Assembly (NCBI RefSeq): GCF_000374125.1
Contig: NZ_KB893643.1
Coordinates: forward strand, 317,645-381,644
DNA length: 64,000 nucleotides
Direction: 5' to 3'
DNA from: Niabella aurantiaca DSM 17617
Lineage (GTDB): Bacteria; Bacteroidota; Bacteroidia; Chitinophagales; Chitinophagaceae
Part shown: in pieces, positions 34,810 through 60,219 of the stretch
How positions within the stretch are numbered: position 1 is the first letter of the stretch
How the letters are laid out: each line of letters starts with the position of its first letter
Notes under the pieces: model-generated
The model's input: the letters and a program-made list of their open reading frames with translations, nothing else
Database searches by the model: none
What the model was told of the DNA's origin: nothing
Program-made: the position numbers and the translations under genes

Positions 34810-34810
34810 G

Positions 34811-38078: not shown

Positions 38079-38497
38079 ATCTGCCAGTTTTCAGATGCCG
38101 CCTTTTTTATTATCCGTGTCGATACATCCACTCGCACTCCATCTTGTATCCTGTATTTTTCATGCGCCTTTTAATGGATCATTTGCCTGTCGGACCTTCC
38201 GCAATTAATAATCTCATCATTACTGTTGCCCGGGTTTGTACCCCTGCTATTTCCCGTTCGCTTCGTTTTGAACGTTTTGTTTCCAATGCTATGCCGCAAA
38301 CATAAACCATTATAAATTAAAATATTGTATCAGGGCAAGCGCTGTTTGCTGTGCGGTTTTAACACAGGAAGTGTACGGTTTTGATACAGTCCTTAATGGT
38401 TGCTCAGTTCATATGACTATGGTCCTTACTTCCTCATTAAGAATCTAAACAGCTTCCGGGAGCAACGTATGTATGTATTTTATCTGTCAGTTGCCAT
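38079..38497. other. 419-bp gap containing the unit-3 control region
   Basis: No gene seen. The conserved tandem operator is at 38349-38390. A weak TGG-N9-GC arrangement on the minus strand (38296-38309) is not the canonical -24/-12 spacing. Confidence 0.6.
38349..38390. promoter_or_regulatory. Tandem operator, locus i
   Basis: Distal copy GTGCGGTTTTAACACAG (38351-38367) and proximal-consensus copy GTACGGTTTTGATACAGT (38373-38390), 22 bp apart, i.e. two helical turns. Related copies occur at 48650, 58043 and 58783. Each has inverted half-sites (ACTGT-like and ACAGT). It lies about 270 bp upstream of the permease ATG at 38078. Confidence 0.7.
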
Positions 38498-40945
38498 TTA
38501 CTCGCTTCGCAATGCTTTGACCGGATCGGCGGCAGCTGCTTTCACCGCCTGGTAGCCTACGGTTACAAGCGCAATGACCACAGCGCTCACAGCTGCAAGG
38601 GCAAACATCCACCATTGAATATCGATCCGGAACGCAAAATCCTGTAGCCACTTCTTCATCAGCCACCCCGCAACAGGACTGGCGATCAGTACAGATAGCA
38701 GCACCAGCGCCACAAACTGCCGCGACAATAGCGCCACGATGCCCGGTATGGAAGCTCCCAGTACCTTGCGGATCCCCACTTCTTTTGTTCGCTGAAAGGC
38801 CGTCAAAGTCGCCAGCCCGAACAACCCAAGGCAGCTGATAAAAACAGCGATGCCCGTGGCCGCCCGCACAAGGGCCTGGGTGCGTTCCTCCTGCTCATAC
38901 AGCTTTTTGATGGTTTCGTCATAGAACCTGTATTCAAACGGCACACTTCCATAAACCTGCTTCCAACTGGCTTCTACCGATGCAATAGCGCTTTTCCATG
39001 CCGATGGCTGTGGCGGGAGCTTTATATTAAAAGTATTGAGCTGCCTTTTATCCATTGCGATCAGTACTGGCTCAATGGCCGACTGCAGCCCGAACTGGTG
39101 AAAATCGCTAATCACTCCCACAATGGGATATGCTTTCTTCTTATTATCCGGAGATACTAAAAATTTCCCGATCGCATCCGCCGGGGATCCGAAACCGAAT
39201 GCCTTTACTGTTTGCTGGTTGATCACGACCTCATTAGCGGTATCTGATGCCCTGAAATTCCTTCCTGCCAGCAGGTGGAACTGGTACAAACGGAGATAAT
39301 CAGTATCGCCGGTCTTTATATTGACAACATGCTGCTCCTTTGTTCCGTTGTTGTATTCAAGCGCCCAGCCCACCATCGAATTATCCATCGGCCGCTTACC
39401 CAATGCCACACCTCCAATGGCCGTATTCCTGTTCAGCTCATTCTTCAGAACAAATTGTTTGTCCTTAAAGGCCGGATCTTCCCACACACGGTGCGGAACA
39501 TTTACAGTGATCACCGCATTTTTATTAAAGCCCAGGTCCTTGTGCAGCATGAATTGCAGCTGCCGGTTCATAATGATCGCGCCAATAATAAATACCTGCG
39601 CCACGAAGAATTGAAATACGATCAGTGCCTTCCGCAGCGGAACCCGGTTGCTGCCGATCACCTTATCGGTCATTCCCTTTAATACATTCACCGTATCGAC
39701 CCGGGAAGACAGCCATGCAGGATACAAACCGGAAAGCAGCGATATCCCGCCAATCAATACCAGCATAAAACCTGCCATGGCAGGATAATTCATGTACCCG
39801 GAAAGGCCCTCAGGTAAAAAACCGGCAAAGATCCTTACCGCAAACCAGGTAAGCACAAAAGAGAACAGCGCCGCCAGCAATGTGATCACCAGCGTTTCCC
39901 CCATAAAACGAAGAATAAGTCCGCGCGCGCTGCTTCCGAGCGTTTTACGGATACCGATCTCCTTTGCCCGCTTCGGCAAAAGGGCGGTGCTTAAATTGGT
40001 ATAGTTAATGCACGCCAGCAGCAACAGGAATGCGCCGGTGATCATAAGCCCGCGCAACACGTTTTTATTCGCTGTCCGGGTTTGCGCGCTGAACCTTTTC
40101 GCAAAATGTTTTTCGGCAAGCGGCAGTACCTCATACCATCTGGAATAGTGATACTTCTCAAACGATTCCCTGTTATGCTTCAGATTGATGGCATTAAGCT
40201 GACTAAGCAGCCGGTCCGGCTTCATGCCGGCTGCCGGTTTTATAAACAAAAGATCGTTGGAATTAACGGCATCCCAGCTGTTATTATCCAGGTCCTGGGG
40301 AGCAACCCGGATAAATTCCATATTGTCTTTACCAAAGCTGTTAGGATATTCCGGTGCAGCCACCACTCCGGAAACACGGTATATAACCGTGTCGTTATAA
40401 GCAATCCTGCGGCCTATTACCTGCTGCGGTGTCCTTAAGGGGAAGTATTCTTTTACCCGGGCTTCTGTAAGCACTACTTTATCCGGTGCATCCAGGGCGG
40501 TATTCCTGTCTCCCGCAAGCCAGGTATAATCAAGCAGTTTAAAATAATCCGGCAAGGTGGCCACCTGCTGAATGTCCTCTTCTTTTTCGATCCGCCTGGA
40601 CGCAGCGCCCTTCCCTTCCTTAACCGTTGCAAACTGGCGGTATTTGTAAAACATCGGAACCACCAGCGCTGCACCGGCGATATCATTCTTCAGCACGTTG
40701 ACAATGGGCCTCGAGATCCCCGAATTACCGCCCTCCGGGTTGTCGCTGCTCCTGCTTTTTGTTATCACCTGGTAAATATTTTCTGCACCGGGTATTCGCT
40801 TATCAAAACTATATTCATAACTCACCATCCTGAAGATGATCCAGGCGATACAGATGCTTACGCCCAGGCCAAGTATATTCAGCACTGTGAACAAACGGCT
40901 GCGCCACAACTGCCGGATCAGAGTAGTTAGAAAATTTTTGAACAT
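38498..40945 (-). CDS. FtsX/MacB double-domain ABC permease
   Basis: 815 residues, same two-unit architecture as its neighbours: single N-terminal helix, MacB_PCD, three helices with KEIGIRKTLGSSARG, second periplasmic region, three helices with KEVGIRKVLGASIPG, end NPVKALRSE. The periplasmic domains are clearly different from those of the other six permeases, which implies distinct partners. It is the last permease of unit 2; 127 bp separate it from the preceding gene and no operator motif is present in that gap. Confidence 0.88.
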   Translation of the reverse strand: MFKNFLTTLIRQLWRSRLFTVLNILGLGVSICIAWIIFRMVSYEYSFDKRIPGAENIYQVITKSRSSDNPEGGNSGISRPIVNVLKNDIAGAALVVPMFYKYRQFATVKEGKGAASRRIEKEEDIQQVATLPDYFKLLDYTWLAGDRNTALDAPDKVVLTEARVKEYFPLRTPQQVIGRRIAYNDTVIYRVSGVVAAPEYPNSFGKDNMEFIRVAPQDLDNNSWDAVNSNDLLFIKPAAGMKPDRLLSQLNAINLKHNRESFEKYHYSRWYEVLPLAEKHFAKRFSAQTRTANKNVLRGLMITGAFLLLLACINYTNLSTALLPKRAKEIGIRKTLGSSARGLILRFMGETLVITLLAALFSFVLTWFAVRIFAGFLPEGLSGYMNYPAMAGFMLVLIGGISLLSGLYPAWLSSRVDTVNVLKGMTDKVIGSNRVPLRKALIVFQFFVAQVFIIGAIIMNRQLQFMLHKDLGFNKNAVITVNVPHRVWEDPAFKDKQFVLKNELNRNTAIGGVALGKRPMDNSMVGWALEYNNGTKEQHVVNIKTGDTDYLRLYQFHLLAGRNFRASDTANEVVINQQTVKAFGFGSPADAIGKFLVSPDNKKKAYPIVGVISDFHQFGLQSAIEPVLIAMDKRQLNTFNIKLPPQPSAWKSAIASVEASWKQVYGSVPFEYRFYDETIKKLYEQEERTQALVRAATGIAVFISCLGLFGLATLTAFQRTKEVGIRKVLGASIPGIVALLSRQFVALVLLSVLIASPVAGWLMKKWLQDFAFRIDIQWWMFALAAVSAVVIALVTVGYQAVKAAAADPVKALRSE

Positions 40946-41072
40946 GTTTTATTTGTTTATACGTTATCCGTCTTTAGGACCGGTTCCCCGTTTCCTGTTC
41001 CGGCATCCACCTCAAACGTTCCTCCATTTTTTATCGTTCCTCCTTCTGCTTTTCTGTTCACCATGCCCGCTC

Positions 41073-43532
41073 CTATTCATTCCTTAAGCTCTTTACCGGG
41101 TTGGTCACTGCCGTCTTAAGGGTTTGTACACTCACGGTAAGTAACGCCAGTACGATCACCAGGGCACCGGCAAACAGGTACATCCACCAGCTTATTTGCA
41201 CACGATAAGCAAATTCCCGTAACCATTCGTTCATTACCAGCCATGAAAAGGGACCGGCAATGATGAGCCCAATAAAGATCAGCAACACAATTTTCCGGGT
41301 CAGCAGCACAGATATATCCTTTATCGTGGCTCCCAGCACTTTCCGGATCCCGATCTCCTTAGAGCGGTTCAGCATGCTCAGCAATGAAAATCCCAGGAGT
41401 CCGAGGCAGGCAATACTCACTGCAAAAAAAGCCGCCACCGATATGATCTGCTGCCAACGCATATCGGTTTTATACATTTCGCCAAGTGACGCATCAAGAA
41501 ATGTAAACTCGAAAGGATAGTCGTGGGTAAGGGTGCTCCATTCTTTTCTGAATCCATCAATGGTTTTGCCCAACTCCACGCCACGCACTTTAAACATGAA
41601 GTAATTCTCATAGGAATCCGTCAGCACATGTTGCTGCGGTCCTATAGGTTTGGTCAGGCTTTCAAAATTATAATCCTTGCAAACACCGATGACCGTAGCA
41701 CGGATCGTTTCATTGTATTCCCCCAATTTTACATTCCCGGGACCCAGCAGTTTATAGAAAGACTCATTGATCACGCAGGCCCTGGCTTTTTTAACCGTGT
41801 CGGAGATCCGGTCCGCCGAAAAAACCCTACCCATTGTCAGCGGGATGTTGAGCAATTTGAAATAATCATAGTCCACTCTTATCTGGCTGTACCACTGCTG
41901 CGCTCCGTTCAGCTTAAACCTGTTGTAATTATAGGATCCTTTTAAATCGCCCCCGATACCAGACATGGCGACTACCTGCGGCTGTGTGCGGGCGTAATTA
42001 AACAGCCGGTTGCGGATCGATGACAGGTCTTTTCCCATAGCTTCATTCTTAATCAGCAGCACCTGCTCTTTATTGAACCCCAGGTCTCTCCTGCTGATGT
42101 ACCGCATTTGCGTGCTGATCACAATAATGGCGATCACCAGAACGAAACAAATAAAGAACTGGAAAACGATCAGCGGATTTGAGAAGCGGGGATTGATCTT
42201 ATAGGTGTGGCCGCTTTTTACCACTGTTACTGCTTTTGTGGCCGAAATCGCAGCGGCAGGATAGCAGCCCGCGAGAAGGCTCAACAATACGGCTAAGGAG
42301 ACACCCGCTATAAGAATTTCTTTAAAAGTGATCATCGAAAAAGAGATCTGCACATCCAGCAGCCGGTTAAAAAGCGGCAGGCCCAGGCGTGCGAAAAACA
42401 ATCCGGACACCATACATAGCAGCACTACCAGCAGGGTTTCCATCCATAACTGAAACACTACCCTTTTTCTACCCGCCCCCATCAGTTTACGCATGCCCAC
42501 TTCTTTTATCCTGCCTATGGCACCTGCGATGGTGAGCAAAATGTAATTCACCGAAGCCAGTACCAGGATCAGGAGGCTCAGGCAGGTCAGCAGGTACAAT
42601 ACCCGGGAATTGGTATAATGGCCCCACCCCTTTGAACTGTAATGGCATTGCTGCAGCGGGCGTAACAGCCACTGGTATTCCCGGACCCTTTCAGGCTTGT
42701 CAAAACGAAGCTCCTGCCCGTATTTTTGCCTCATCCAGCTATTTAACTTGTGCTGGAATCGGGCTGCATCCACCCCGGTTGCCAGCTCGATAATGTATTG
42801 GTGCGACCATGTATTCAACCTGCTGCTGATGCGGTCGGTATAGTCGGGTCTCGATCTTATATTATAAACCATACTATACCGGATGCCGGAATTGGCAGGC
42901 GCATCCGCTGCTATTCCGGTAACAATAAATTGCTGAGTAGTATCATTATCCAGCACCACCCGTTGTCCTATAGGATCCCTGCTCCCAAAATATTTTAACG
43001 CCACAGATCCCGACAAAACCATGCTATTGATGTCCTCAAGCACCGTAGCAGGGTTGCCTTTTAAAAGAGGAAAACTAAAATTTTCAAAAAAATTGGCGTC
43101 AACATCCAGTATATCTGTTTCCTTAAACACTTTATCATTGGCCTCTACCACCGTTTTCCAGGCCTCATCATTTAATGACATTCCTGCCATCCTGGTGATA
43201 CTTTTTACCTCCGGAAAAGCAGCCTGCAATTCTTCTGCAATAACAAAGGGGAAAACCACAGAATTGTTTGTTTCCTCCCCACCGGTCAGTTTCTTCAGCC
43301 AGCCCCTCTTTGTACCTTCCTCTTCCTTTATTTCATATCGCTGCGTTGCCTCCAGCCGGAACAAACGGTCCTTTTTTGTGTGGAAGCCATCAAAGGATCG
43401 CTCATACCGGATATAAAAAAACAATAAAAGGCACAATGCAACCGAAATACTCAGCCCGATTATATTAATACTGCTGATCACCCTGTTCTTCCAGAGGATC
43501 CGTACTGCCACTTTAAAATAATTTTTCAGCAT
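41073..43532 (-). CDS. FtsX/MacB double-domain ABC permease
   Basis: 819 residues, the longest of the set. The first FtsX block has KEVGMRKLMGAGRKR and the C-terminal one KEIGIRKVLGATIKD; end NPVKSLRNE. The first periplasmic domain contains an extra Lys/Glu-rich stretch (EIKEEEGTKRGWLKK, about 70-85) not seen in the others. Third gene of unit 2; 91-bp gap to the upstream permease. Confidence 0.88.
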   Translation of the reverse strand: MLKNYFKVAVRILWKNRVISSINIIGLSISVALCLLLFFYIRYERSFDGFHTKKDRLFRLEATQRYEIKEEEGTKRGWLKKLTGGEETNNSVVFPFVIAEELQAAFPEVKSITRMAGMSLNDEAWKTVVEANDKVFKETDILDVDANFFENFSFPLLKGNPATVLEDINSMVLSGSVALKYFGSRDPIGQRVVLDNDTTQQFIVTGIAADAPANSGIRYSMVYNIRSRPDYTDRISSRLNTWSHQYIIELATGVDAARFQHKLNSWMRQKYGQELRFDKPERVREYQWLLRPLQQCHYSSKGWGHYTNSRVLYLLTCLSLLILVLASVNYILLTIAGAIGRIKEVGMRKLMGAGRKRVVFQLWMETLLVVLLCMVSGLFFARLGLPLFNRLLDVQISFSMITFKEILIAGVSLAVLLSLLAGCYPAAAISATKAVTVVKSGHTYKINPRFSNPLIVFQFFICFVLVIAIIVISTQMRYISRRDLGFNKEQVLLIKNEAMGKDLSSIRNRLFNYARTQPQVVAMSGIGGDLKGSYNYNRFKLNGAQQWYSQIRVDYDYFKLLNIPLTMGRVFSADRISDTVKKARACVINESFYKLLGPGNVKLGEYNETIRATVIGVCKDYNFESLTKPIGPQQHVLTDSYENYFMFKVRGVELGKTIDGFRKEWSTLTHDYPFEFTFLDASLGEMYKTDMRWQQIISVAAFFAVSIACLGLLGFSLLSMLNRSKEIGIRKVLGATIKDISVLLTRKIVLLIFIGLIIAGPFSWLVMNEWLREFAYRVQISWWMYLFAGALVIVLALLTVSVQTLKTAVTNPVKSLRNE

Positions 43533-43623
43533 AGATTTCAGTGTTGGGCGTGTAAATTGAGATCTCAGATATCCGCAGCAGGTATCATTTTACATTTACA
43601 ATTTCTTATGCTATCTTATCGGC

Positions 43624-46050
43624 TCATTCGTTTCTTAAGCTGTTCACAGGATTTGCTGCGGCCGCCTTAATAGCCTGTATGCTCACCGTCGCCACAGCAA
43701 TAACAAGCGCTATTCCGCCTGCCGCTGCAAATACCCACCAGGCAATAGATACCCGGTAGGTAAAATGCTGCAGCCACTTGTTCAACGCCCATAAAGCAAT
43801 TGGCATTGCGATAAAAATTGCTATAACAACCGGTTTAACGAATTCCCTACCGACCAGCGAGGCAATATTGGCGACAGACGCCCCCAGCACTTTCCGTACA
43901 CCGATCTCCTTGGTACGCTGTCCTGTTACAATAAAGGCCATTGCAAATAATCCCATGCAGGATAAGATAATGGCGATGCCGGCCGCTATTGAAAACATCC
44001 TTGCCAGTTTTTGCTCAGACCGGTACCAGCGGTCCACATTTTCATCTACATAAGACCCAAGAAATGCGGCACCGGGGTTCACTTCCCGCCAGGCATTTTT
44101 TACCAGATCCATGGCAGCAGCCGGATCGGTCGTTTTCACCTTAACCAGCAGGTAAGAAAAATTTGCTCCCGGCTCTAAGCCAATGGTGAGCGGTTCCGTT
44201 TCATGATATAACGAATACAAATGAAAATCAGGGATCACGCCCACAATATGCCAGGGTTTCGCCGCCGAATCATATAAAATATGCTGTCCTACCGGGTCTT
44301 TCAGATCCAGCTTTTTTACAAAACTTTCCGTAACAATTACATGATGAGCGGAATCTGCGTTATAGTTTCTTGTAAAATCACGCCCACCGAGCGTTCGCAC
44401 TCCCAGTGTTTTCAGTATATCAAAGCCGGCAGCCATATAGGCGGTTCTGATATGCCGCTCCCGATGATCAAAGCCAAACATCTCTTTATTGGAGCTCCCA
44501 TCCTTTCCAAGCCCCAGGTTTATATTACTGGCAGATACGCTTATAACCGATGTTTGACTATTTAAAAGGTTCCGTATTCTTTCGACCGGGTCGGCGGAAG
44601 CGGTATGCTCACCGCTCATGGGCACCGAAATAAGGTTTTCCTTCTCATAACCCAGGGGAGCCGTCCTTAAATGCTGAAATTGCTGGTAAATGACAACAGT
44701 AGCACAAATCAGCACTACTGCTATGATAAATTGAAAAACGATCAATACATTTCTTAAGCCACTCTTTCCTTTAATGATCAATTTCCCCTTTAATATCTCG
44801 TTAACCTTTAAGCGATTCATTAATAAAGCAGGTGAGCCGGAAGCCATTAATGAAATAAAAAGTATCAGGGCTACCAGGCCGGTTATTACAACAGGCTGTC
44901 CAAGCAGGGATGCTGTAATAGAAGCTCCAAATAATTGATTAAACTTTTTTACCAGGGCCAATGCCAGCCCCGTACCCATGAATGCAGAAAGCGTAATTAA
45001 AAAAGCACTTTCGCACCAGACCTGTATCCAGATCTGCCGCTTCTGCGCACCCATATACTTGCGAATACCCATTTCCCTGAAACGTGTAAAAGCCACTCCC
45101 ATATTCAGATTCACAAAATTGAAACCGGCAATTAAAAGAATAACCCCGGCAATAAGCAGCAGGAGGTAAAGAAAGGTTTTATCAATAGCATCATCGGAGC
45201 CTACGGTTGTGTTAAAATGCAGCTCCGTGACCGGCAGCAGCCGCAGCCCGCCGTAGTCGCCCCAGGCATCTTTTTTAAATCCCATTCTTTTTGCTTCCCC
45301 GTCGCTCGCGGGAGCCGTATATTTTTTTGAAAATTGCCGGAGGCGCTGCTCCACATCCTTTTGATTTACACCTGGCATCAACCGCACGTATAAATTGGAG
45401 GAAGCCATATCCCAGCTGTTCTTACCTACAGGAAAGTCAGGATCCAGATCAATCCGGGCCAGCACCTGAAGATCCAGTGAACTGTTATAGGGCAGTTTAT
45501 CGATGACGCCGGATACCATCAACGGCAGCCATTTATTGCCCACATTCACAGCAACCTGTTTTCCAACAGGATCTTCTGTGCCAAATAAGCTTGCAGCTAC
45601 CGGTTCCGTTATTACCACATTGTTCTCATTGGATAAAGCGTTGGCCCCGGTACCTTCCAGCATCGGAAGCGAAAAGATACTCAGAAAATCAGCGCCTACA
45701 AGCCGGATGGAACTATTCAGCTGTTTATCGCCATAACGGATCCCGCCGCCGCCATTCCGGACAAGGGCCGCTTTTTCTATACCGAGGCGTTCCATTTTCA
45801 ATGCCTCCTGGGCGGGGAACGCTATTGAAGCGGATTGCTTTTCTCCCTCTATCCTGTTTTTATAGTTATATACTTTAAAAATACGCTCCCCGTGAGGATA
45901 GGATTGATCATAAGAAAACTCCTGGTATACCCGCAGCAATAATAAAATAGCACAGGTAAACGCCACGGTCAGGCCGATAAAATTAATAACCGTTGCCACC
46001 TTATTCTTTCGAAAGGTGCGGATTAAGGTTTTTATATAATTTTTTAGCAT
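43624..46050 (-). CDS. FtsX/MacB double-domain ABC permease
   Basis: 808 residues. The first FtsX block has REMGIRKYMGAQKRQ and the C-terminal one KEIGVRKVLGASVAN; it ends NPVNSLRNE. N-terminal helix at about 17-40, second periplasmic domain about 450-670. Second gene of unit 2, 69 bp after the first permease of that unit. Confidence 0.88.
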   Translation of the reverse strand: MLKNYIKTLIRTFRKNKVATVINFIGLTVAFTCAILLLLRVYQEFSYDQSYPHGERIFKVYNYKNRIEGEKQSASIAFPAQEALKMERLGIEKAALVRNGGGGIRYGDKQLNSSIRLVGADFLSIFSLPMLEGTGANALSNENNVVITEPVAASLFGTEDPVGKQVAVNVGNKWLPLMVSGVIDKLPYNSSLDLQVLARIDLDPDFPVGKNSWDMASSNLYVRLMPGVNQKDVEQRLRQFSKKYTAPASDGEAKRMGFKKDAWGDYGGLRLLPVTELHFNTTVGSDDAIDKTFLYLLLLIAGVILLIAGFNFVNLNMGVAFTRFREMGIRKYMGAQKRQIWIQVWCESAFLITLSAFMGTGLALALVKKFNQLFGASITASLLGQPVVITGLVALILFISLMASGSPALLMNRLKVNEILKGKLIIKGKSGLRNVLIVFQFIIAVVLICATVVIYQQFQHLRTAPLGYEKENLISVPMSGEHTASADPVERIRNLLNSQTSVISVSASNINLGLGKDGSSNKEMFGFDHRERHIRTAYMAAGFDILKTLGVRTLGGRDFTRNYNADSAHHVIVTESFVKKLDLKDPVGQHILYDSAAKPWHIVGVIPDFHLYSLYHETEPLTIGLEPGANFSYLLVKVKTTDPAAAMDLVKNAWREVNPGAAFLGSYVDENVDRWYRSEQKLARMFSIAAGIAIILSCMGLFAMAFIVTGQRTKEIGVRKVLGASVANIASLVGREFVKPVVIAIFIAMPIALWALNKWLQHFTYRVSIAWWVFAAAGGIALVIAVATVSIQAIKAAAANPVNSLRNE

Positions 46051-46119
46051 AATGCAATTTCTGATGTCTGGTGTTGAACGTTCATCAACTATTGACCATT
46101 GGCGATTCCCTGTCTTTTT

Positions 46120-48525: not shown

Positions 48526-48901
48526 TACAATCTCCGTTTAGGCATGCAGCAGGTCGCCATCCGCCGCATATGTTTTATTCCAACGATGATGCCATGAAGA
48601 CAGGCCACTAATAACCAATCGGTTGGAGCCAGATTCCCATCTTCTCATTGTGCGCTTTTAAAACAGGCACCGTCCGGTTTTGATACAGTTTTACAACCTG
48701 GTAAAAAAGTAAAATCCAGACCAACTCGCCGCAACCCCAACCGTAACAACCCGTACAACCAACCCCTATTATACCGGCATCCAGCTTTAAGATCCCACAC
48801 TCCTCTTTCCCGATGCATCACTCAGGCCGCAGTGCCCGAACCATAGAATTGAGATTCGCGCCGCGGGGCACTCCATACCCGTTTTATCCGCCGCTACTTC
48901 T
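48526..48901. other. 376-bp gap containing the unit-2 control region
   Basis: No gene seen. Holds the tandem operator; the remainder, including the GC-rich 48820-48895 part, shows nothing recognisable. Confidence 0.6.
48650..48689. promoter_or_regulatory. Tandem operator, locus ii
   Basis: Copies GTGCGCTTTTAAAACAG (48650-48666) and GTCCGGTTTTGATACAGT (48672-48689), again exactly 22 bp apart and in the same orientation as at 38351/38373 relative to the minus-strand genes. Confidence 0.7.
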
Positions 48902-51277: not shown

Positions 51278-51284
51278 TGGATTC

Positions 51285-51316
51285 TCGTTTGAGATTTGAG
51301 ACTCAAGACTTCAGCA
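51285..51316. repeat. Degenerate GAGATTTGAG tract
   Basis: CGTTTGAGATTTGAGACTC immediately upstream of the permease start. Confidence 0.5.
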
Positions 51317-51414
51317 TGTAACCTTACGTATTTTTTCTTACTTTTAATTTTCCAACTTTTATAAAGATCATTTTCAAATGTTCAAATCAGCACATTCTCA
51401 TATTTCTACATTCC

Positions 51415-53787
51415 CTACTCGCTCCGCAAGGCTTTTACCGGGTTGGCAACAGCGGCTTTAAGTCCCTGGGTACTAACGGTCAGTAAGGCTATCAGCAGCA
51501 CAGTAATCCCCGCCAATAAATAAATGCCCGCAGACAAATTGGTGTGATGATCATATTTATCCAGCCAACGCTGCATGCACCACCAGGAAACGGGCACCGC
51601 AATGATAAAGGACACCATGACCAGCTTTAAAAATTCTTTGGTCAGCAGTGCCGTTAAGCCCAGCACATCCGCACCCAATACCTTGCGTACCCCGATCTCT
51701 TTGGTACGCTGTTCTGCGGCAAATGCCGACAACCCCAGCAATCCAAGACAGGACAAAAAAATGGCGATGCCGCCAAAAACGTTGGTCACAATACCCAATA
51801 TTTGTTCGTTCTGATATTTCTTCGCAAAGTTTTCTTCAACAAATTCCAGGCCTGGTGGAAAGGCCGGGTTGCGTTTCTTTAATTCCCTGTTGATCGCTTC
51901 CACTGAAGCCGTAATATTTTTTTCAGGATTCAGACGCATGGCCACAAAGCCCGGCCGGTTCTGGTAAAAAACGATCATCGGGTTCAGCTTGTAGTAGGGA
52001 GATCCCTTTGTAATGTCTTTAAACACTCCTACAATTGTGTATTGCGTACCATCCTCCTCTTTTATTTGGGTACCGATTGGTGATCGCAGCTTCATTACCT
52101 TCATGGCCGTTTCGCTGATGAGCACGTTCTTACCCGCGGTATCAGCAGGATGATCCGGTGAAAAATCCCTCCCGGTGATAAAGACCGTTCCAAAGGTCTT
52201 CGTAAAACCGAAGCCCACACCCAAAAAATCGATCAATACCCGTTCCCCCGGCAACTTGCCTGGCCAGCTGAATCCCCATCCGTTGTTCCCACCCTGGGTA
52301 ATGCTGATGCTTGTTCCCGTAGCCGCTGTAATTACATTGTCGCGCAGCAGATCATTGATCAGCACATCCTTCTTTGCGCCCAGCACTCCCTCCATCTTTA
52401 TCTCTACCAGGTTTTCCTTATTATAGCCAATGGGCCTGTTACGGATATACTCCACCTGTTTATAGATGCTGAAGGTCGCCACCATTAAAAACATGGCCGT
52501 CGAGAACTGAAGGACCACTGATATTTTACGGACCGGCACTACCGATTTTCCGTTTGTGATAAATCCTTTTAATACTTTTACCGGTTTAAAAGAAGAAAGA
52601 TAGAATGCGGGATAAGAACCTGCTATCAGGCTTGTAAGAAGCGTCATCAGTACAATTCCTGCCCAAAACTCCCAGTCTGAGAACGGTAGTTTCAGATCTA
52701 TTTGCAGCAGACGGTTAAACGACGGAAGCGCGACCGTAAGTATCAGAAGCGAAACCAAAAGTCCCAGCACCGTAATCAGCAATGATTCCCCGAGAAATCT
52801 GAAAACGAGTGATCTCCGGTCGCTGCCAATGGTTTTGAGTATGCCCACTTCCCTGGCACGTTTTTGCGACCGCGCCGTGCTGAGGTTCATAAAATTAATA
52901 CAGGCGATCAGTAAAATGGCTATGGACAGATATATAAATAACCGTATCTGCGAGATCTGCCCTGACCCCGTTGCCTTCCCGTTCTTAAAATCGCGGTACA
53001 GATGGTTCCTGGCCAGCGGGTATAGAAAGGCTTCCGCTTTATAATTGTTCTGGTTTGCCATAACCATTTTTCTTATGACCGCATCCGCAGGCAGGAAATC
53101 GTTTTCAGATCTCAGCTGTACATAGGTATCTGTAAAATTCGATCCCCAGCCTGCATCCTTTGCCCAGGGATTTTCATTTTCCAGAACACGCCACGGCAAT
53201 ATATAGTCAAACTGAAATGTTTCATTGGGACGGGGCGTAGCAACTACTGCCGACACCACCAATGGCACGGTATCATTCCGCATCACGGTTTTGCCGACGG
53301 GGTCTTCATCGCCAAAAAGCTTTTTTGAAAATTCTTCAGTGATAACGATGTTGTTGGGGTTTGCCAGTGCCGTCCGGGCATTCCCCCTTAAGAAGGCATA
53401 GCTGAACAGCCTGAAAAATGCGCTGTCCGCGTTCAGGCCCGAAGTCCGGAAGATCCGGTCTTTATAACGGGTGATGCCCCCTGCGAAATAATCGGCGACC
53501 CTTACTGCACGGACCACTCCCGGCACCTGGTCTTGGATGGCTTTTGCCATAGGCCCCGGAGATACCTGATAGGTAAAAACGTCGTTATCTGCAAACTGGT
53601 TGCTCTCGATCACATAAATATTCTCAAGGTCCTTAAAACGTTTATCCCAGCCAAGATGATAATTTGCATACAATAACAGCAGCAGGCAGCTTGCCAGGCC
53701 GATAGCCAGCCCCAGGATATTCAGCAACGAGAACCCTTTACTTTTCCACAAGCTCCTCCAGGCTGTTTTAAAATAATTTTTGATCAT
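51415..53787 (-). CDS. FtsX/MacB double-domain ABC permease
   Basis: About 790 residues from ATG 53787 (MIKNYFKTAWRSLWKSKG), which aligns with the start of the neighbouring permease; the frame is open a further 16 codons to 53835. The first FtsX block reads REVGILKTIGSDRRS, with Leu in place of the usual Arg in the IRK motif; the C-terminal block is regular (KEIGVRKVLGADVLG). End NPVKALRSE. It follows the S41 protease gene by 94 bp. Confidence 0.88.
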   Translation of the reverse strand: MIKNYFKTAWRSLWKSKGFSLLNILGLAIGLASCLLLLLYANYHLGWDKRFKDLENIYVIESNQFADNDVFTYQVSPGPMAKAIQDQVPGVVRAVRVADYFAGGITRYKDRIFRTSGLNADSAFFRLFSYAFLRGNARTALANPNNIVITEEFSKKLFGDEDPVGKTVMRNDTVPLVVSAVVATPRPNETFQFDYILPWRVLENENPWAKDAGWGSNFTDTYVQLRSENDFLPADAVIRKMVMANQNNYKAEAFLYPLARNHLYRDFKNGKATGSGQISQIRLFIYLSIAILLIACINFMNLSTARSQKRAREVGILKTIGSDRRSLVFRFLGESLLITVLGLLVSLLILTVALPSFNRLLQIDLKLPFSDWEFWAGIVLMTLLTSLIAGSYPAFYLSSFKPVKVLKGFITNGKSVVPVRKISVVLQFSTAMFLMVATFSIYKQVEYIRNRPIGYNKENLVEIKMEGVLGAKKDVLINDLLRDNVITAATGTSISITQGGNNGWGFSWPGKLPGERVLIDFLGVGFGFTKTFGTVFITGRDFSPDHPADTAGKNVLISETAMKVMKLRSPIGTQIKEEDGTQYTIVGVFKDITKGSPYYKLNPMIVFYQNRPGFVAMRLNPEKNITASVEAINRELKKRNPAFPPGLEFVEENFAKKYQNEQILGIVTNVFGGIAIFLSCLGLLGLSAFAAEQRTKEIGVRKVLGADVLGLTALLTKEFLKLVMVSFIIAVPVSWWCMQRWLDKYDHHTNLSAGIYLLAGITVLLIALLTVSTQGLKAAVANPVKALRSE

Positions 53788-53881
53788 AGAATTCAGAATT
53801 AAGGATCGGGAACCGGGATTTAAGAATCGATTCATCTTTCTCTATTAACTATTTCCCATTCCCCTCAACAACATTACCAAC

Positions 53882-55300
53882 CTATTTTATTTTCTGCTGC
53901 AGGTATGCCCTGGCACGATCCAGCACCACATCTTTCCCTTTCAGGTAATCATCCACCGTTGGCACCACCGGAATATGCGGCTGGATCCCATATCCCACAA
54001 ATTCCTTTCCATCGGGATAGGTATCCTTTTTTGTGCATACCCGTGCTGAACCGCCGCCGGGCATATCAAAAACCAGGGGTTGGCCGGTACTGCCAAAGCT
54101 GGGCTCTCCCATACGTATCATATGCTTTTGATTTTCCGCAGCGATCAGGAAATCTTCCGCAGCGGAAGCCGTTCTGTTTCCGGTAAGGATCACCGTGGGT
54201 ACCACAATACGGGGCCTATTTAGTACGAACGATTGCGGCTCGTACGGGAAATTATAAGTGTACACGCCTTTATATACTTCCAGGCATTTCTTATTCCACG
54301 CGTTCCCGATGGTATCCTTTTCCGTTACATATGCACCCCAGGCCTTAAATGCGGGCAGGTGTTCCCTTGTTGCATATCTTGCCCCCGCCAAAACCGTATC
54401 TTTGATCAGGTATTTGAGGATATAGGTGCCGATGTTGGTGCTGCCTCCGCCATTGAAACGCAGGTCTACGATCAAACCTTTGGCCTGATAGAGCTGCGGC
54501 AGAACGGCATCAAACAGGGTATCAATCTTTCGATTTGAAAATGAGTTCAACCCAAGATAAGCCACCCCATTCTCCAGCATTTTAAACTCCAGCAGTTCCC
54601 GCTCCTGCTCATCGTAGTAGGCGCCTGCCTCGGGGAAATAGATACTGTCTGTTGGCGATGCATGCACCAGGTTTACGACCGCCTGCTTCCCGTCTGGTTT
54701 TTTTATTTTGATATTAAAAGAGGTACCGGGAGCACCTGCAAGCATCCAGTGGGTAGCGCCGTTCCATTTTACATATTCGGTAGAACTGGAAATATAGGGC
54801 AACAGGCTATCTCTTAAATACCGTTCGGAAGAGATGCCGTTCACTGCTATGATCTCGCTCCCCACCGGCAATAGCGACTGATCTTTTTTCCAGGAACGTA
54901 TAATGACCGGTTTGTCTTCAATGCGCTTCACAACCACCAGGTGATCACCGAACACATTTTGCATGATCGTTAATCCTTTTATTTTCGGTGGAAAAATATT
55001 GGTATGACCATCATGCAGCAAGGCGCAGAACTTTTGTAACAGCCGGTAATACGCATAATCATTTTCCGTTTCCTGCACCAGGGGGATGAGGGCCTTATAC
55101 GTGCTGTCCCACATCTTACGGTCAATTCTATCCAGATATACAAAATTATAATTCACCTCCTGCCAGAATTTCGATAGGCCATAAACTTTATCTGCGGCGG
55201 AAATAGCATTTGCGATCTGTGCATTGCCCGGAAAACAAAATACGAGGCCGGAGCAGGCAAAAACAAAGCGTAAAAAAAAGGCAACAGAAGATCTTAGCAT
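53882..55300 (-). CDS. S41-family (tail-specific/tricorn-like) peptidase
   Basis: 472 residues with a signal peptide (FFLRFVFACSGLVFCFPGNAQ). A PDZ-like part (about 120-200) precedes the catalytic core: GLIVDLRFNGGG, then LTGNRTASAAEDFLIA with the nucleophilic Ser in SAAE, and MGEPSFGSTGQP. It is a periplasmic protease of the C-terminal-processing type. Its place between the ATPase and permeases of unit 1 suggests it processes or clears a substrate of the exporter. Confidence 0.85.
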   Translation of the reverse strand: MLRSSVAFFLRFVFACSGLVFCFPGNAQIANAISAADKVYGLSKFWQEVNYNFVYLDRIDRKMWDSTYKALIPLVQETENDYAYYRLLQKFCALLHDGHTNIFPPKIKGLTIMQNVFGDHLVVVKRIEDKPVIIRSWKKDQSLLPVGSEIIAVNGISSERYLRDSLLPYISSSTEYVKWNGATHWMLAGAPGTSFNIKIKKPDGKQAVVNLVHASPTDSIYFPEAGAYYDEQERELLEFKMLENGVAYLGLNSFSNRKIDTLFDAVLPQLYQAKGLIVDLRFNGGGSTNIGTYILKYLIKDTVLAGARYATREHLPAFKAWGAYVTEKDTIGNAWNKKCLEVYKGVYTYNFPYEPQSFVLNRPRIVVPTVILTGNRTASAAEDFLIAAENQKHMIRMGEPSFGSTGQPLVFDMPGGGSARVCTKKDTYPDGKEFVGYGIQPHIPVVPTVDDYLKGKDVVLDRARAYLQQKIK

Positions 55301-55384
55301 TATATTACTTTTAAAAAACCGGGCGATCCTTGAATAATATGGGAAAATAGAAAAATGTTATACCATTCACCACAATCCTACGCC

Positions 55385-56062
55385 CTATACCAAAATATTT
55401 TCCGTTACCGTATGCCCGTCCAGCATCCGGATGATGCGGTGGCTGTAGCGCGCATCGTGCTCGCTGTGGGTTACCATCACAATGGTCGTTCCCGCTTCGT
55501 TCAGGTCGGTAAGCATCTGCATCACCTCGTTCCCGTTGCTGCTGTCCAGGTTACCGGTCGGCTCATCGGCCAGGATCAGCCTGGGCCGGTTGACCACGGC
55601 TCTTGCAACGGCCACGCGTTGTTGCTGTCCGCCGGAAAGCTGCTGCGGAAAATGATTGCGCCGATGCATGATCTGCACTTTCTCCAACACTTCGTCTACC
55701 CGGGCTTTACGTTCTGTTTTCTTTACTCCCGCATACATCAGAGGCAACTCTACATTTTCAAAAACGGTCAGCTCGTCGATCAGGTTGAAGCTCTGGAACA
55801 CAAAGCCGATATTTTTTTTACGCATATCCGCGCGCTTGCGCTCATTGAATTTGGCAACCTCTATACCATTGAACAGGAAGCTGCCCGCATCCGGGTCGTC
55901 CAGCAAACCAAGTATATTTAGCAGGGTCGATTTACCGCAACCAGACGGGCCCATTACGGCCACGAACTCCCCCTCTTTTACTTCAAAGGAAAGATCATTC
56001 AAAGCAACGGTTTCTACTTCCTCCGTGCGGTAGATTTTTTCGAGACCAGATATTTTTATCAT
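55385..56062 (-). CDS. MacB/LolD-type ABC ATPase
   Basis: 225 residues: Walker A GPSGCGKST (38-46), signature LSGGQQQRVAVARAV, Walker [15 protein letters not shown]-loop VTHSE. All motifs are regular, unlike the 34946 ATPase. It likely powers permeases of units 1 and 2. Confidence 0.92.
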   Translation of the reverse strand: MIKISGLEKIYRTEEVETVALNDLSFEVKEGEFVAVMGPSGCGKSTLLNILGLLDDPDAGSFLFNGIEVAKFNERKRADMRKKNIGFVFQSFNLIDELTVFENVELPLMYAGVKKTERKARVDEVLEKVQIMHRRNHFPQQLSGGQQQRVAVARAVVNRPRLILADEPTGNLDSSNGNEVMQMLTDLNEAGTTIVMVTHSEHDARYSHRIIRMLDGHTVTENILV

Positions 56063-56084
56063 GCATCCAAGTTTTTAGATTTGA

Positions 56085-56100
56085 GCTATCAGCCGTCAGG
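56085..56100. repeat. Left arm of a 16-bp inverted repeat flanking the 4HB pseudogene
   Basis: GCTATCAGCCGTCAGG; its perfect reverse complement is at 56532-56547. The pair encloses a broken four-helix-bundle gene almost exactly (right arm starts 2 bp after the stop). Confidence 0.75.
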
Positions 56101-56182
56101 TATCAGTTATCAGATTTTTCCGGACTCCTGTATTAAAATATTTTTTTATGTTTACTTATTGTTAATACTATAAAAACAGACT

Positions 56183-56530
56183 ATGAGGAACTTTACAAAA
56201 CTCACCATTTGACAAAGAAGTCATCAACGCACCTTAACGATCTACCGCATCACTAAAAACTTTCCCAAAGAAGAAAATAGGGCATTAACCTATCAAATGC
56301 GGAAAGCCGCCTATTCTATTCCTACAAACATCGCGGAAGGCTGCGGCAGGAGAACAATTCCACAATTCAGAAACTTCCCCGACATTGCCGCAGGTTCTGC
56401 TACCGAAACTCATTACCAGCTTATCCTTTCGAAAGATCTTTTCTATATTACCGCTACGCTTGCAGAAAGCTTAATTCAGGAAGTTATCGAGATCAAAAAA
56501 ATGATTTCCGGATTCATGGACAAACTTTGA
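56183..56530 (+). pseudogene. Four-helix-bundle protein (23S rRNA IVS-type), broken by an in-frame TGA
   Basis: From ATG 56183 the frame reads MRNFTKLTI, TGA (56210-56212), then QRSHQRTLTIYRITKNFP and on to the QMRKAAYSIPTNIAEGCGR signature and LILSKDL, ending 56530. Homologues have IWQKS at the stop position, so a single TGG-to-TGA change inactivates the gene. Apart from the stop it is full length (115 codons). The remaining open part from ATG 56297 encodes 77 residues. It is on the opposite strand to the surrounding ABC cluster and enclosed by a 16-bp inverted repeat. Confidence 0.8.
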
Positions 56531-56531
56531 T

Positions 56532-56547
56532 CCTGACGGCTGATAGC
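56532..56547. repeat. Right arm of the 16-bp inverted repeat
   Basis: CCTGACGGCTGATAGC, perfect reverse complement of 56085-56100. Confidence 0.75.
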
Positions 56548-56596
56548 CGACAGCTACTTCTTCAACACCAGCGTCTCATATCTCCGTTCTCAATTC

Positions 56597-57850
56597 TCAC
56601 CTCCTGAGAATCAGCTCCTGCATATCCCCGTAATTTTCATAACTGCTGGTAACCACTCTGTCACCGGGTTTGAGGCCCTTCAGCACTTCATAGTAATCCG
56701 GGTTCTGGCGTCCAAGCTGCACTTCAGCCTTGTAGGCCGTTTTTCCATCATCGCTCAGTTTGAACACCCAGTTGCCACCGGTTTGCTGATAGAAGCCGCC
56801 CTTCGCCAGCAGGATCGCGGTCATTTCATCGCTCAATGCCAGGCTGATCTGCAAGGTTTGCCCGCGCCGGATGTCTTTAGGAGCAGCGCCGGTAAACTCC
56901 ATATCTACCTGAAAGCGTCCGTTGGTTACCTGGGTGTACACTTTTTTCACCCGCAGCCGATAAGTCTTTCCGGCCACTGCAGCTTCCCCGGTAAGCCCGT
57001 TGAACACCCTGGAAATATAATGCTCATCGATATCCACCCGCACTTTATATCCGCTCAGCACATCAATCTGCCCCAGGCGCTCTCCTTTGTTCTTGGACTG
57101 CCCGATCTCCGCATCCAGGGAGGTCAGCTGCCCGTCGACCGGGGCACGCAGCACCAGGTCGCCCACTTTGCGACCGTAAAGGGTCAATGCTCTTTGAGAA
57201 TTGTTAAACGACTGGGCGGCCTGTTTTGTCTGCAGCTGGTTGGATTCCGCATCCTGCTTCGTAATGCGTTCTGCAAGGTCGCGTTTTTTGAGTTTGTACT
57301 GATAATCGATTTCCGATTTACGGAATTCCTGTTCGCCGATGGCTTTATTCTCATACAGGTACTTATTCAGGTTATAAAGGCGCGCTGCTTCTTTCAGCTG
57401 GCTTTCCGCATCCGTCATCTGGTTGAGGTTGTTCACAGTATTTTGCTGTGCAGTAGCCTTGGCCAGTTGTACCTGTGCCAGTGTGGTATAAACGGAAGAC
57501 TGCTGACCGATCAGGTTCAATTCAAGATCGGTATTGCTCAAGCGTAAGATCGGTTCCCCTTTTTTCATCATGGCGCCGTCCTCTACAAACTTTTCTTCCA
57601 CCCGCCCGCCTTCCATCGCATCGAGGTAAATGGTGCTGATGGGCAGCACAACCCCGTTTACCGGTATGTACTCTTTAAATGGCGCTTTTTTAACCTCACT
57701 GACGGTTATCCGTTCCAGGTCCACGTTCAGTTTGCTTTTGCCGCCGGCTATTACCACGCTGAACACGATCAACAATGCCAGCGCCGTTATACCGGCAATG
57801 GCTCCTATTCTTTTTTTACTCCAGAACTTTTTTTCAATTACTCTGTCCAC
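56597..57850 (-). CDS. HlyD/MacA-type periplasmic adaptor (membrane fusion protein)
   Basis: 417 residues: N-terminal membrane anchor (about 17-37), lipoyl/barrel-sandwich halves around GVVLPISTIYLDAMEGG and VLRAPVDGQL, a coiled-coil hairpin rich in Gln/Ala between (about 130-220), beta-barrel, and a membrane-proximal domain ending LKPGDRVVTSSYENYGD. It bridges the FtsX permeases and the TolC-like protein. First gene of unit 1, with the operator 190 bp upstream. Confidence 0.88.
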   Translation of the reverse strand: MDRVIEKKFWSKKRIGAIAGITALALLIVFSVVIAGGKSKLNVDLERITVSEVKKAPFKEYIPVNGVVLPISTIYLDAMEGGRVEEKFVEDGAMMKKGEPILRLSNTDLELNLIGQQSSVYTTLAQVQLAKATAQQNTVNNLNQMTDAESQLKEAARLYNLNKYLYENKAIGEQEFRKSEIDYQYKLKKRDLAERITKQDAESNQLQTKQAAQSFNNSQRALTLYGRKVGDLVLRAPVDGQLTSLDAEIGQSKNKGERLGQIDVLSGYKVRVDIDEHYISRVFNGLTGEAAVAGKTYRLRVKKVYTQVTNGRFQVDMEFTGAAPKDIRRGQTLQISLALSDEMTAILLAKGGFYQQTGGNWVFKLSDDGKTAYKAEVQLGRQNPDYYEVLKGLKPGDRVVTSSYENYGDMQELILRR

Positions 57851-58197
57851 GTTTGCTCTTTTTTTACCGTAATATGCCTTTTGCGTATTTTATAGCTGAC
57901 CGTTCATTTTGCAGTGCGCTTCGCTGGACGGTTTACAGTCCTTTATCCATCATGCAACAATATGCCAATTTACCAAACTATTGATCGTAAATACATTAAT
58001 ACCGGAAAGTTTTATTTTTCTGTTCGCTATCGCACAAGAACTGTCCGTTTTTGATACAGTGAAGCGGACAGCTTTTAGCTATCGGCCAGCAGCAAAATCT
58101 GACAATTGACCCTGACAGCTGAAAAAAGGGAGCAGATAAGACTACCCGCCCCGTATATACATGAGAAATGTCGAAAGATAGAAAGATACAGGAGCTG
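57851..58197. other. 347-bp gap containing the unit-1 control region
   Basis: No gene seen. Contains the operator at 58021-58060. AGCTATCGGCC and CCTGACAGCTG (58076-58121) resemble the arms of the inverted repeat at 56085/56532. A TTGGCAT...TTGCAT arrangement on the minus strand (57951-57968) looks -24/-12-like but is one base short between GG and GC. Confidence 0.55.
58021..58060. promoter_or_regulatory. Operator, locus iii
   Basis: Strong copy GTCCGTTTTTGATACAGT (58043-58060), extended by AACT to the perfect half-site pair ACTGT...ACAGT. The distal copy (58022-58038) is degenerate and 21 bp away. Confidence 0.65.
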
Positions 58198-58644
58198 CTA
58201 CAGATCTCCTCTCCTGTATTTTTTTGATGTAACGATCTGGCCGTTACCGTTCACCACGGCATTGACCAGGTATTGCTCATCCTTTAAGGTCACATAATAA
58301 GTTACCTCATCATTTATACTCAGTTCTGAGACGTTGGCGATGTGCTGTTTTTCAAATTTCTTTTTCAGGCGATAACGGATGATGGCAGGCAGCTGCTCCT
58401 CCCGGTAATACCGGATCGTCCGGATCAGTTTCCCGTTGTCATCAAAAACCGCCCGTACCAGCATGTCGTTTACTTTAAAGCTCGCTTCGTTATTGTCCTT
58501 CTCTTGTTTCCATTTCACCTGCTCTGCATGCGCAAAAACCAGCTCGAAACTTTTTAGTACTTTTTCGTTCAGCACCGGGTTCGTATCGGCGGCGGCCACA
58601 TTCAACGTAATAAAAGCGGCGATGATCCATATCAGTTTTTTCAT
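58198..58644 (-). CDS. Small secreted PepSY-like protein
   Basis: 148 residues from ATG 58644, with a signal peptide (LIWIIAAFITLNVAAA). The mature part contains two repeats of a beta-alpha pattern (VNDMLVRAVFDDNGKLIRT and VVNGNGQIVTSKKYR) reminiscent of PepSY-like domains of Bacteroidota. It is divergent from the response regulator; locus iv of the operator lies 140-155 bp upstream, so it may be a regulon member acting as periplasmic sensor partner or stress marker. Function not known. Confidence 0.65.
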   Translation of the reverse strand: MKKLIWIIAAFITLNVAAADTNPVLNEKVLKSFELVFAHAEQVKWKQEKDNNEASFKVNDMLVRAVFDDNGKLIRTIRYYREEQLPAIIRYRLKKKFEKQHIANVSELSINDEVTYYVTLKDEQYLVNAVVNGNGQIVTSKKYRRGDL

Positions 58645-58760
58645 TGTGATGTTCTTTAAATGTTTGAGGAATATGATTCTGCTATCAGGTACTGAAACGG
58701 CGTGCCACAATAATAACAGCATAACACTCAATTACTTAAATCCGGGCTCATTAAAAAAAA

Positions 58761-58800
58761 CGTATAAAACCGGACACCAACCGTCTGTTTTTGATACAGT
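58761..58800. promoter_or_regulatory. Operator, locus iv (between secreted protein and response regulator)
   Basis: GTCTGTTTTTGATACAGT at 58783-58800, plus an inverted second copy TGTCCGGTTTTATACG on the minus strand (58761-58776). The right end abuts a TTG (58800-58802) that is 17 bp from AATATTTG (58820-58827), a possible promoter for the regulator gene, so binding here could also autoregulate it. On the minus strand TGGCACG (58701-58707) is a perfect -24 box, but no GC sits at -12. Confidence 0.6.
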
Positions 58801-58863: not shown

Positions 58864-60219
58864 ATGCTATTAAAAGACGCATCCATATTGATCGTTGATG
58901 ATGACCCTGATGTGCTCACCGCTGCACGCCTGCTGCTCAAATCGCAAGCCAGGGAAGTAACCACCGAGAAAAACCCGGAGAACCTCCGGTCTGTTTTCTC
59001 AAAAAAAGATTTCGATCTTGTATTGATGGATATGAACTTCAACAGCAGTATCAATACCGGTAATGAAGGTTTATACTGGTTGCGCAAGATCCGGGAATTG
59101 GGGTCAAAGGCCTCCATCATTATGATCACCGCATATGGCGACATAGACCTGGCGGTACGGTCGCTCAAAGAAGGTGCTTCTGATTTTTTGCTGAAACCCT
59201 GGCAAAACGACCAACTGATCCTGAACATAAAAGAGCTGCTGAAAAAGCGGGCGGCGAAATCCTCAGCAGCCCAGCTCCATACCGCGGGAACCAGCGGCCT
59301 GCTCGGGCATTCTGAGGCCATGCAGGATGTACAGAAAAAGATCGAAAAGATCGCACCCACAGATGCCAATATACTGGTGCTGGGTGAAAACGGCACCGGC
59401 AAGGACCTCGTGGCCCATGCCATTCATCAGCAATCGCGGCGGGCCGCAAAGCCGTTCATAAAAACGGATGTGGGCTCACTAACGGAGAGCCTTTTTGAAA
59501 GCGAATTGTTCGGGCATACCAAGGGCGCATTTACCGACGCACGGGAAGAGCGGACCGGGCGTTTTGAAGCAGCCGGCGGCGGTACCCTGTTCCTGGATGA
59601 GATCGGTAATATCTCCCTGCATCAGCAGGCACGTTTACTGACCGTGCTTCAAAACAGGCAGGTCACCAAACTGGGATCGCATCAGCCCATCCCGATTGAT
59701 ATACGCCTGATCTGCGCTACCAATGTTCCGCTTGACGAACTGGCCAATGAAAAACGTTTCAGGAAGGACCTCATCTACCGCATCAATACCGTAGAGATCA
59801 TCCTGCCGCCGCTGCGGAAAAGAACAGGCGATATTGAGCTGCTGGCCCGCCATTTTGTAAAACAGTATAAGGAAAAATATTTTAAATCCAATCTCGAACT
59901 GGATAAAAAAGCCATCGATAAGCTCAACCACTACCATTACCCGGGAAACGTACGTGAGCTGCAATATGCCATAGAACGTGCCGTGATCATGAGCGACGGC
60001 GAATACCTGCAACCGGGGGATATTGTTTTTTCGCCCATTGAAAGCAGGGACACTGAGTCGATGAAAACGCCGGATTCCATCAATCTGAATGTTCTTGAAA
60101 AGAATGCCATCCTCCTGGCGATAGAAAAGAACAACGGGAATATCACAAAAGCAGCAAAAGAGCTGGGACTGACGCGCACCGCTCTTTACCGCAGGCTGAA
60201 TAAATATGATATTGAGTAA
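58864..60219 (+). CDS. NtrC-family sigma-54-type response regulator
   Basis: About 451 residues from ATG 58864 ([16 protein letters not shown]). The receiver domain has acidic pocket DDD, phospho-acceptor in LVLMDMNF, and KPW; a short insertion NSSINTGNE follows the acceptor Asp. The AAA+ domain has GENGTGKD (Walker A) and [10 protein letters not shown] (Walker B). The sigma-54 contact loop reads GAFTDA instead of GAFTGA. The C-terminal Fis-type HTH is intact ([20 protein letters not shown]). It overlaps the kinase gene by 14 bp. The divergent transporter cluster is the likely target. Confidence 0.9.

Follow-up and report, generated by a model that had tools for sequence, protein, structure and literature searches.

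The 64,000-nt stretch of Niabella aurantiaca DSM 17617 analysed here (contig NZ_KB893643.1; hereafter the window, to whose full length all positions refer) carries a cluster of ATP-binding cassette (ABC) transporter genes with seven permeases on the minus strand, next to an NtrC-type response regulator and a histidine kinase encoded on the plus strand (Table 1). The cluster proteins match the Pfam families OEP, ABC_tran, MacB_PCD plus FtsX, Peptidase_S41 and HlyD (three of the seven permeases were run against Pfam), and the analysis of open reading frames (ORFs), Pfam and NCBIfam agrees with the seven permeases and the gene order given in an earlier reading of this DNA from its letters only (the sequence-only reading). 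Four minus-strand units are preceded by an operator, a TGT-N11-ACA dyad that reads CTGTATCAAAAnCGnACA on the minus strand, and at all four loci a sigma-54-like box, absent from the earlier account, follows the operator at a fixed distance. The resulting composite element consists of one or two dyads 22 bp apart and a -24 box, YTGGCAY, with a weak -12 part. Judging from the anatomy, rigid spacing, orientation and conservation of this element, from its co-occurrence with the regulator and from the identity of the genes downstream, the linked regulator is probably a sigma-54 activator that controls an ABC-permease regulon through the dyad-promoter element.

The four operator cores that the sequence-only reading placed at 38373, 48672, 58043 and 58783 lie exactly there, and its related copies at the first two loci (38351 and 48650) are exactly 22 bp away. 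The inverted copy that it described at locus iv is present as well, and can be refined to a dyad in the same 22-bp slot as at the other loci; all four window operators are paired, two of them (iii and iv) loosely. At up to three mismatches the core has five matches in the window, for a chance mean of 0.36, and none of 100 shuffles reaches five. A scoring matrix built from 29 sites of relatives only ranks the six window copies at the top of the 64 kb (31.4, 28.2, 25.6, 16.4, 16.2 and 11.9 bits), the next match (11.4 bits) lying within a permease ORF. The best matrix score averages 9.5 and reaches 18.8 in 100 Markov-1 resamplings of the window, so that only sites i, ii and iii stand out by score; for site iv and the second copies the support is that of position and conservation. 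No matrix match of 9 bits or more occurs in any of the six gaps that had been named as free of the motif. In the whole genome (5.93 Mb, 25 contigs), a 17-mer pattern has five exact matches, namely the four window sites and G000:C7:94721, and 33 matches at up to two mismatches versus six for the reversed pattern. Two one-mismatch matches (L006 and L007) were read as chance, their printed flanks being without a YGGCAY box at the fixed distance. Site iv has CAGAC where the others have CGnAC, and the strict genome pattern misses it.

All four window elements face minus-strand genes with their boxes at the fixed distance, for which chance gives about 6e-10 (a rough value, as the 4-bp slot comes from these very data; the window has 0.00125 YGGCAY per base). 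The earlier statement that the motif heads each transcription unit holds for the three units of the permease cluster. The box of site iv, 73 bp away from its operator, is a minus-strand one and is therefore aimed at the secreted-protein gene and not at the regulator or the two-component unit; a role of site iv as promoter of the regulator was rejected, as the box faces the other way.

Table 1. Genes, operators and promoter-like boxes of the window.
Feature	Position	Strand	Evidence
Operator i, first copy (CTGTATCAAAACCGTACAC), in front of unit i (permease-ATPase-TolC)	38371..38389	-	
Operator i, second copy, 22 bp downstream	38349..38367	-	
-24/-12-like box, unit i (CGGCATAGCATTGG), 74 bp downstream of the first operator copy	38283..38296	-	
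Operator ii, first copy	48670..48688	-	
Operator ii, second copy, 22 bp downstream	48648..48666	-	
-24/-12-like box, unit ii (TGGCATCATCGTTGG, with the canonical N5), 75 bp downstream of the first operator copy	48580..48594	-	
Operator iii, first copy; degenerate second copy (TGTGCGATAGCGAACA, N10) in the 22-bp slot	58041..58059	-	
-24/-12-like box, unit iii (TGGCATATTGTTGC), 73 bp downstream of the first operator copy	57954..57967	-	
Operator iv, first copy; second slot is an inverted dyad	58781..58799	-	
-24/-12-like box, unit iv (TGGCACGCCGTTTC), 73 bp downstream of the first operator copy, towards the secreted-protein gene	58694..58707	-	
Unit i: TolC-type outer-membrane efflux protein	33502..34938	-	Pfam
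Unit i: ABC ATPase	34946..35623	-	Pfam
Unit i: permease P7, first gene, ADOP-like, two MacB_PCD and two FtsX stretches	35700..38078	-	Pfam, NCBIfam
Unit ii: four ADOP-like permeases (46120-48525, 43624-46050, 41073-43532, 38498-40945)	38498..48525	-	NCBIfam
Unit iii overall	48902..57850	-	
Unit iii: HlyD-type adaptor	56597-57850	-	Pfam
Unit iii: ABC ATPase	55385-56062	-	Pfam
Unit iii: S41 peptidase	53882-55300	-	Pfam
Unit iii: two permeases	51415-53835, 48902-51277	-	NCBIfam
Unit iv: 148-aa protein, apparent signal peptide (by eye), ATG at 58644	58198..58644	-	
NtrC-type response regulator, proposed operator binder: REC, sigma-54 AAA+ with GAFTDA loop, Fis-type helix-turn-helix (HTH)	58864..60219	+	Pfam
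Histidine kinase, proposed regulator partner: two close N-terminal hydrophobic segments	60206..61546	+	hydropathy, Pfam

The spacing was measured in a sample free of pattern selection, made up of the window segment and 40 regions of relatives fetched only by their regulator gene. This sample holds 41 strict operators (three from the window, where site iv is not strict), and a YGGCAY box is found within 170 nt of 38 of them (35 distinct boxes, paired copies sharing one). All 38 boxes lie either 52-55 nt (14) or 74-77 nt (24) from the core end, and never elsewhere; the two modes differ by 22 bp, indicating that a single dyad usually takes the nearer slot. Counted from the end of the 19-mer, the box comes 72-75 bp downstream when operators are paired and 50-53 bp downstream when they are single, as seen in 39 of 42 sites listed by hand. 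The consensus from column counts is YTGGCAY-N4-TT[G/T], and the box of window site ii has N5-TTGG. The T at +11 of the box, which was not imposed by the search, is present in 39/39 sites and in 72 of the 76 sites of a larger, partly pattern-selected set. The first base of YGGCAY is T in 35 of 39 boxes and C in four, the search having allowed only these two letters. Loci L111-L140 and L159-L178 were picked with the composite pattern, so that their spacing is partly built in. As a control, an operator-box spacing of 14-44 nt gave 14 matches in nine genomes versus 164 in 66 genomes for 48-78 nt. Six of the 14 short-spacing matches are in genome G334, in which the operator-box spacing of five permease promoters (L223-L227) is 43 nt, shorter by one helical turn than 53-54 nt, which suggests that helical phase is kept. 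The lone short-spacing match in a regulator-negative genome (G144) has no system gene downstream.

The linked NtrC-type regulator, which had been put forward as the natural binder, is the best candidate on grounds of co-occurrence. Among the 147 genomes of the family (family and phylum counts follow the taxonomic grouping of the genome collection used), the strict composite element is present in 66 of the 73 that carry the regulator (E <= 1e-100) and in none of the 74 that do not (Fisher test, 3e-34, kinship ignored), and in all seven genera with both states (g1, g10, g20, g21, g27, g30 and g152) the element follows the regulator. Permeases like P2 (E <= 1e-60) occur in 71 family genomes, all among the 73 regulator-positive ones. 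The reversed pattern has a single match in the 147 genomes, which makes the element specific enough for a regulon to be read from sequence. In a phylum-wide search the pattern was found in 12 of 345 genomes, seven of them outside the family, and the reversed pattern in none.

The same arrangement is found before such clusters in relatives. In the 32 better-matching regions (L067-L098) among the 40 that were fetched with the regulator gene as query, the system adjoins the regulator in 29, with HlyD first in 28 and TolC first in L098. The matrix finds an operator in the gap between regulator and system in 29/29 cases, and these gap operators all point away from the regulator, often as pairs 22 bp apart. 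The division into four units, as proposed by the sequence-only reading, stands for the window, of which it is a local elaboration: within the 18.5 kb read per region, an extra internal operator was found in six of the 29 relatives, and the other 23 have operators only in the gap beside the regulator. The signal is also not particular to this cluster, since it precedes an eighth permease of the genome as well as permease, ATPase and HlyD genes of relatives. In the window's genome, all eight duplicated permeases of about 800 aa that were found (seven in the window and one on contig 7) sit in element-headed units, and four single-domain MacB_PCD ORFs (408-441 aa) of the same genome have no composite match.

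The targets were surveyed at 30 sites, one per genome, by taking the longest ORF within 700 bp downstream, which is not always the first gene. This ORF encodes HlyD at 14 sites, a permease at 11 and an ATPase at three (28/30). The remaining two sites lead to the regulator (L140) and to a DUF4097 protein (L115). At L140, in genome G324, the element lies directly before the regulator gene, and the regulator may activate its own gene there, outside the window's genome. At L115 (G326:C14) the element is followed by the secreted-looking DUF4097 protein, and about 1.6 kb past the element lies a permease; a link of this protein to envelope-stress modules is possible. Among 20 further regions, chosen by hand among the matches listed, 18 lead to system genes; in L173 the TolC gene is 889 bp from the element, and in L174 a small ORF comes first. 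HlyD also lies downstream of the element in three relatives from other families (L200-L202). In L088, L089, L174 and L164 the first larger gene is separated from the element by short ORFs that look by eye like membrane proteins. A small RNA considered for L159 and L163, where the automated scan had shown no gene, was dropped: an in-frame ATG within the -24 box had been taken as the start of the permease ORF.

The regulator exceeds the gathering thresholds of Response_reg (PF00072, 78.1 bits), Sigma54_activat (PF00158, 220.6 bits) and HTH_8 (PF02954, 50.3 bits), and RpoN is present in the genome. The neighbouring kinase has no recognised outside sensor domain in Pfam. Among the kinases of 30 loci, 14 of the 15 that could be read have adjacent or merged hydrophobic segments in their first 64 residues (by hydropathy only), and that of L050 has a single segment above the hydropathy cut-off. 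This architecture may point to sensing through the membrane or through the permeases.

A more divergent view comes from 26 regions with distant regulators (47-54% identical), mostly from other families. Their dyads differ from those of the home family, e.g., TGTTCATTTTTGAACA and TGTAAAAAAACTTTACA, and in most of them 100-103 nt separate the start of the first dyad from the box, against 89-91 nt in L205, L222 and L100 (there for the first of two boxes). An exact TGGCAC-N5-TTGC is present in three regions of one other family (L104, L106 and L212). A TTGAWWWTCAA-like block 13-23 bp upstream of the -24 box is conserved in the home family and visible in other families, and a TGA-N-TCA-like block is visible in most distant dyad-bearing regions. 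The TTGAWWWTCAA-like block may be a site for an IHF/HU-type or other protein; its right half fits the IHF consensus, and its conserved left half does not.

We propose that the regulator, once phosphorylated, presumably by the neighbouring kinase as its putative partner, would bind two TGT-N11-ACA dyads two helical turns (22 bp) apart, whose centres precede the -24 box by about 60 and 82 bp (derived from the measured spacings). The bound regulator would contact sigma-54 RNA polymerase at YTGGCAY-N4-TT and open the promoter by ATP hydrolysis, thus acting as an activator rather than as a repressor. The predicted regulon would comprise the duplicated ATPase-less MacB/FtsX-type permeases, the HlyD adaptor, the ATPases, TolC and some small secreted proteins, i.e., four units in the window plus the eighth permease on another contig. 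More tentatively, and as a possibility that we consider less likely than not, one two-component system may run the duplicated permeases of the family, with regulator, element and permeases gained and lost together, and the permeases may report their load to the kinase, which has no recognised outside sensor. If true, the system would be a Gram-negative sigma-54 counterpart of the flux-sensing modules of the Bce type, with an enhancer geometry of unusual rigidity set by helical phase.

Several observations weigh against the proposed activator role, and some of them are best considered with the idea that a different DNA-binding protein owns the operator, the regulator being linked for another reason. 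Seven regulator-positive genomes are without a pattern match (among these exceptions, L073 has a variant operator and G255 only a 43%-identical paralogue of the regulator), dyad and box were found in 13 of the 26 distant regions (12 of the 15 with a recognisable HlyD), and the correlation could in part reflect joint inheritance of the cluster, since regulator, element and permeases go together. Two of the 20 hand-chosen regions (L164 and L178) have no recognised system gene downstream. Most pertinent to another binder is genus g17 (genomes G168, G253, G257, G269 and G285; loci L099, L100, L117, L118, L169, L170 and L220-L222), whose regulators are only 52-54% identical: a TGTCCG-type dyad lies in the regulator-HlyD gap of L222 and home-type TGTATC operators precede permeases at other loci of the same genomes (L117, L118, L169 and L170), so that either the g17 regulator reads both dyad types or another protein acts there. 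L098 likewise breaks a simple covariation of HTH and operator, having an HTH residue typical of other families and a home-type operator, and the conserved block between operator and promoter is a place where another protein may act. Against these points stand the absence of the strict element from all 74 regulator-less family genomes and its tracking of the regulator within seven genera, the different operators of families whose regulator is about 50% identical, and the paired dyads upstream of a -24 box, which are the usual layout for NtrC-type activators. We consider a different owner of the operator unlikely.

Concerning the promoter, support for sigma-54 dependence is good, if incomplete. 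In the home family the -12 part lacks a conserved GC and mostly stands one base too close to the -24 part (N4), the activator loop is GAFTDA instead of GAFTGA in the window regulator and in 39 of 40 aligned relatives (that of L094 reads GSFTGA), and RpoN, present in 146 of the 147 family genomes, says little by its presence. The GGCAY could then belong to a housekeeping or extracytoplasmic function (ECF) promoter, the regulator acting on another form of the polymerase, which we regard as improbable given the T at +11 in 39/39 sites, the exact TGGCAC-N5-TTGC at the same place in three genomes of another family, and the full sigma-54 activation domain of the regulator in a genome with RpoN. A by-eye inspection of the elements for the consensus of the housekeeping -33/-7 promoter of Bacteroidota gave no fixed match. 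Moreover, a recent survey (PMC12316311; PLoS One 2025) gives a gap of 5 to 7 nt from TGGCAC to TGC, and itself places COG0577 FtsX-like permeases of Bacteroidia under predicted sigma-54 control. The geometry has its own exceptions: three of the 42 hand-listed operators are without a box, the dyads of L205 and L222 are about one turn nearer, the operator-box gap of G457 (L200) is 63 nt, about one turn longer than usual, and nine of the ten regions inspected in the spacing control still precede system genes. Finally, the regulator might repress, or the element might have spread only by the copying of permeases with their upstream regions. The permeases are clearly duplicated and their upstream regions could have gone along, but elements also precede unrelated genes (those for HlyD, ATPase, the DUF4097 protein and the 148-aa secreted protein), the interval between operator and box shows little conservation apart from one block and two A positions, in keeping with selection on the anatomy, and the five G334 promoters keep helical phase at a spacing one turn shorter. 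We give this explanation, too, little weight compared with activation by the linked regulator.

The regulator resembles NtrC, ZraR and AtoC in its REC domain, sigma-54 AAA+ domain and Fis-type HTH, and in the position of paired dyads upstream of a -24/-12-like promoter. It does not reach the cut-off of any of the 25 top-scoring NCBIfam models listed (AtoC, 382 versus 714 bits; ZraR, 361 versus 760). Unlike in these systems, the distance between operator and promoter is fixed here within a few bases, and the targets form an ABC-permease system. The upstream activating sequence of NifA is TGT-N10-ACA, which the TGT-N10/11-ACA dyads described here resemble. The permeases resemble those of the ADOP family (TIGR03434) in their length of about 800 aa, their duplicated MacB_PCD/FtsX halves and the lack of a fused ATPase; no ATPase domain was detected in the three permeases scanned with Pfam. 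All seven match ADOP best, with a best stretch near full length in five of seven. At 205-304 bits for a cut-off of 622.3 they are nevertheless not members by TIGR03434, and with MacB (PRK10535), a single polypeptide of ATPase plus permease, they score 23-50 bits where 966 are needed for membership. The two-component system, with a kinase that is a candidate intramembrane sensor, and the linked permeases with large outside domains recall the Bce-type modules of Firmicutes, as outlined in the abstracts of PMC10314905 and PMC3023708. In the present system, numerous permeases stand beside two ATPases, HlyD and TolC, and the response regulator is of the NtrC-type sigma-54 activator class, to which BceR is not known to belong.

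Few regulatory circuits are known to have been worked out in bacteria of this group. Neither the regulator nor the operator or the composite element was found described in the literature searched, which included few subscription papers. PMC12316311 terms the link between sigma-54 and permeases a previously unrecognized regulatory axis; it deals with the same gene class, with the sigma factor proposed here and, if the placement of this DNA holds, with the same phylum, and in the passages considered it reports bulk promoter enrichment, without operator, activator or geometry for these permeases. The element would add a candidate regulator for a large permease class of unknown substrate, and offers, through reporter fusions, a direct route to the inducing signal. 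Since operators vary between families and the promoter layout stays, the elements also form a natural series that would be useful for studying the constraints of enhancer geometry on sigma-54 activation.

Some further features of the units were noted. The 148-aa protein of unit iv matches no Pfam family at the gathering threshold. Between promoter and HlyD gene, 10 of the 29 leaders scanned contain a stem of 9-12 bp with a loop of 6-11 nt (L067, L068, L071, L073, L074, L078, L080, L081, L087 and L095), followed in some by a T run; an eleventh stem (L088) falls inside a small ORF, and the leader of L082 was only partly scanned. The stem could be an attenuation or mRNA element. That such a hairpin belongs to the system in general was rejected, as only part of the leaders has one (counted without a shuffled control). 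In unit iii, a gap of 534 bp (56063-56596) separates the ATPase and HlyD genes; in relatives, the corresponding gap ranges from 39 bp (L089) to 713 bp (L072) by tblastn coordinates.

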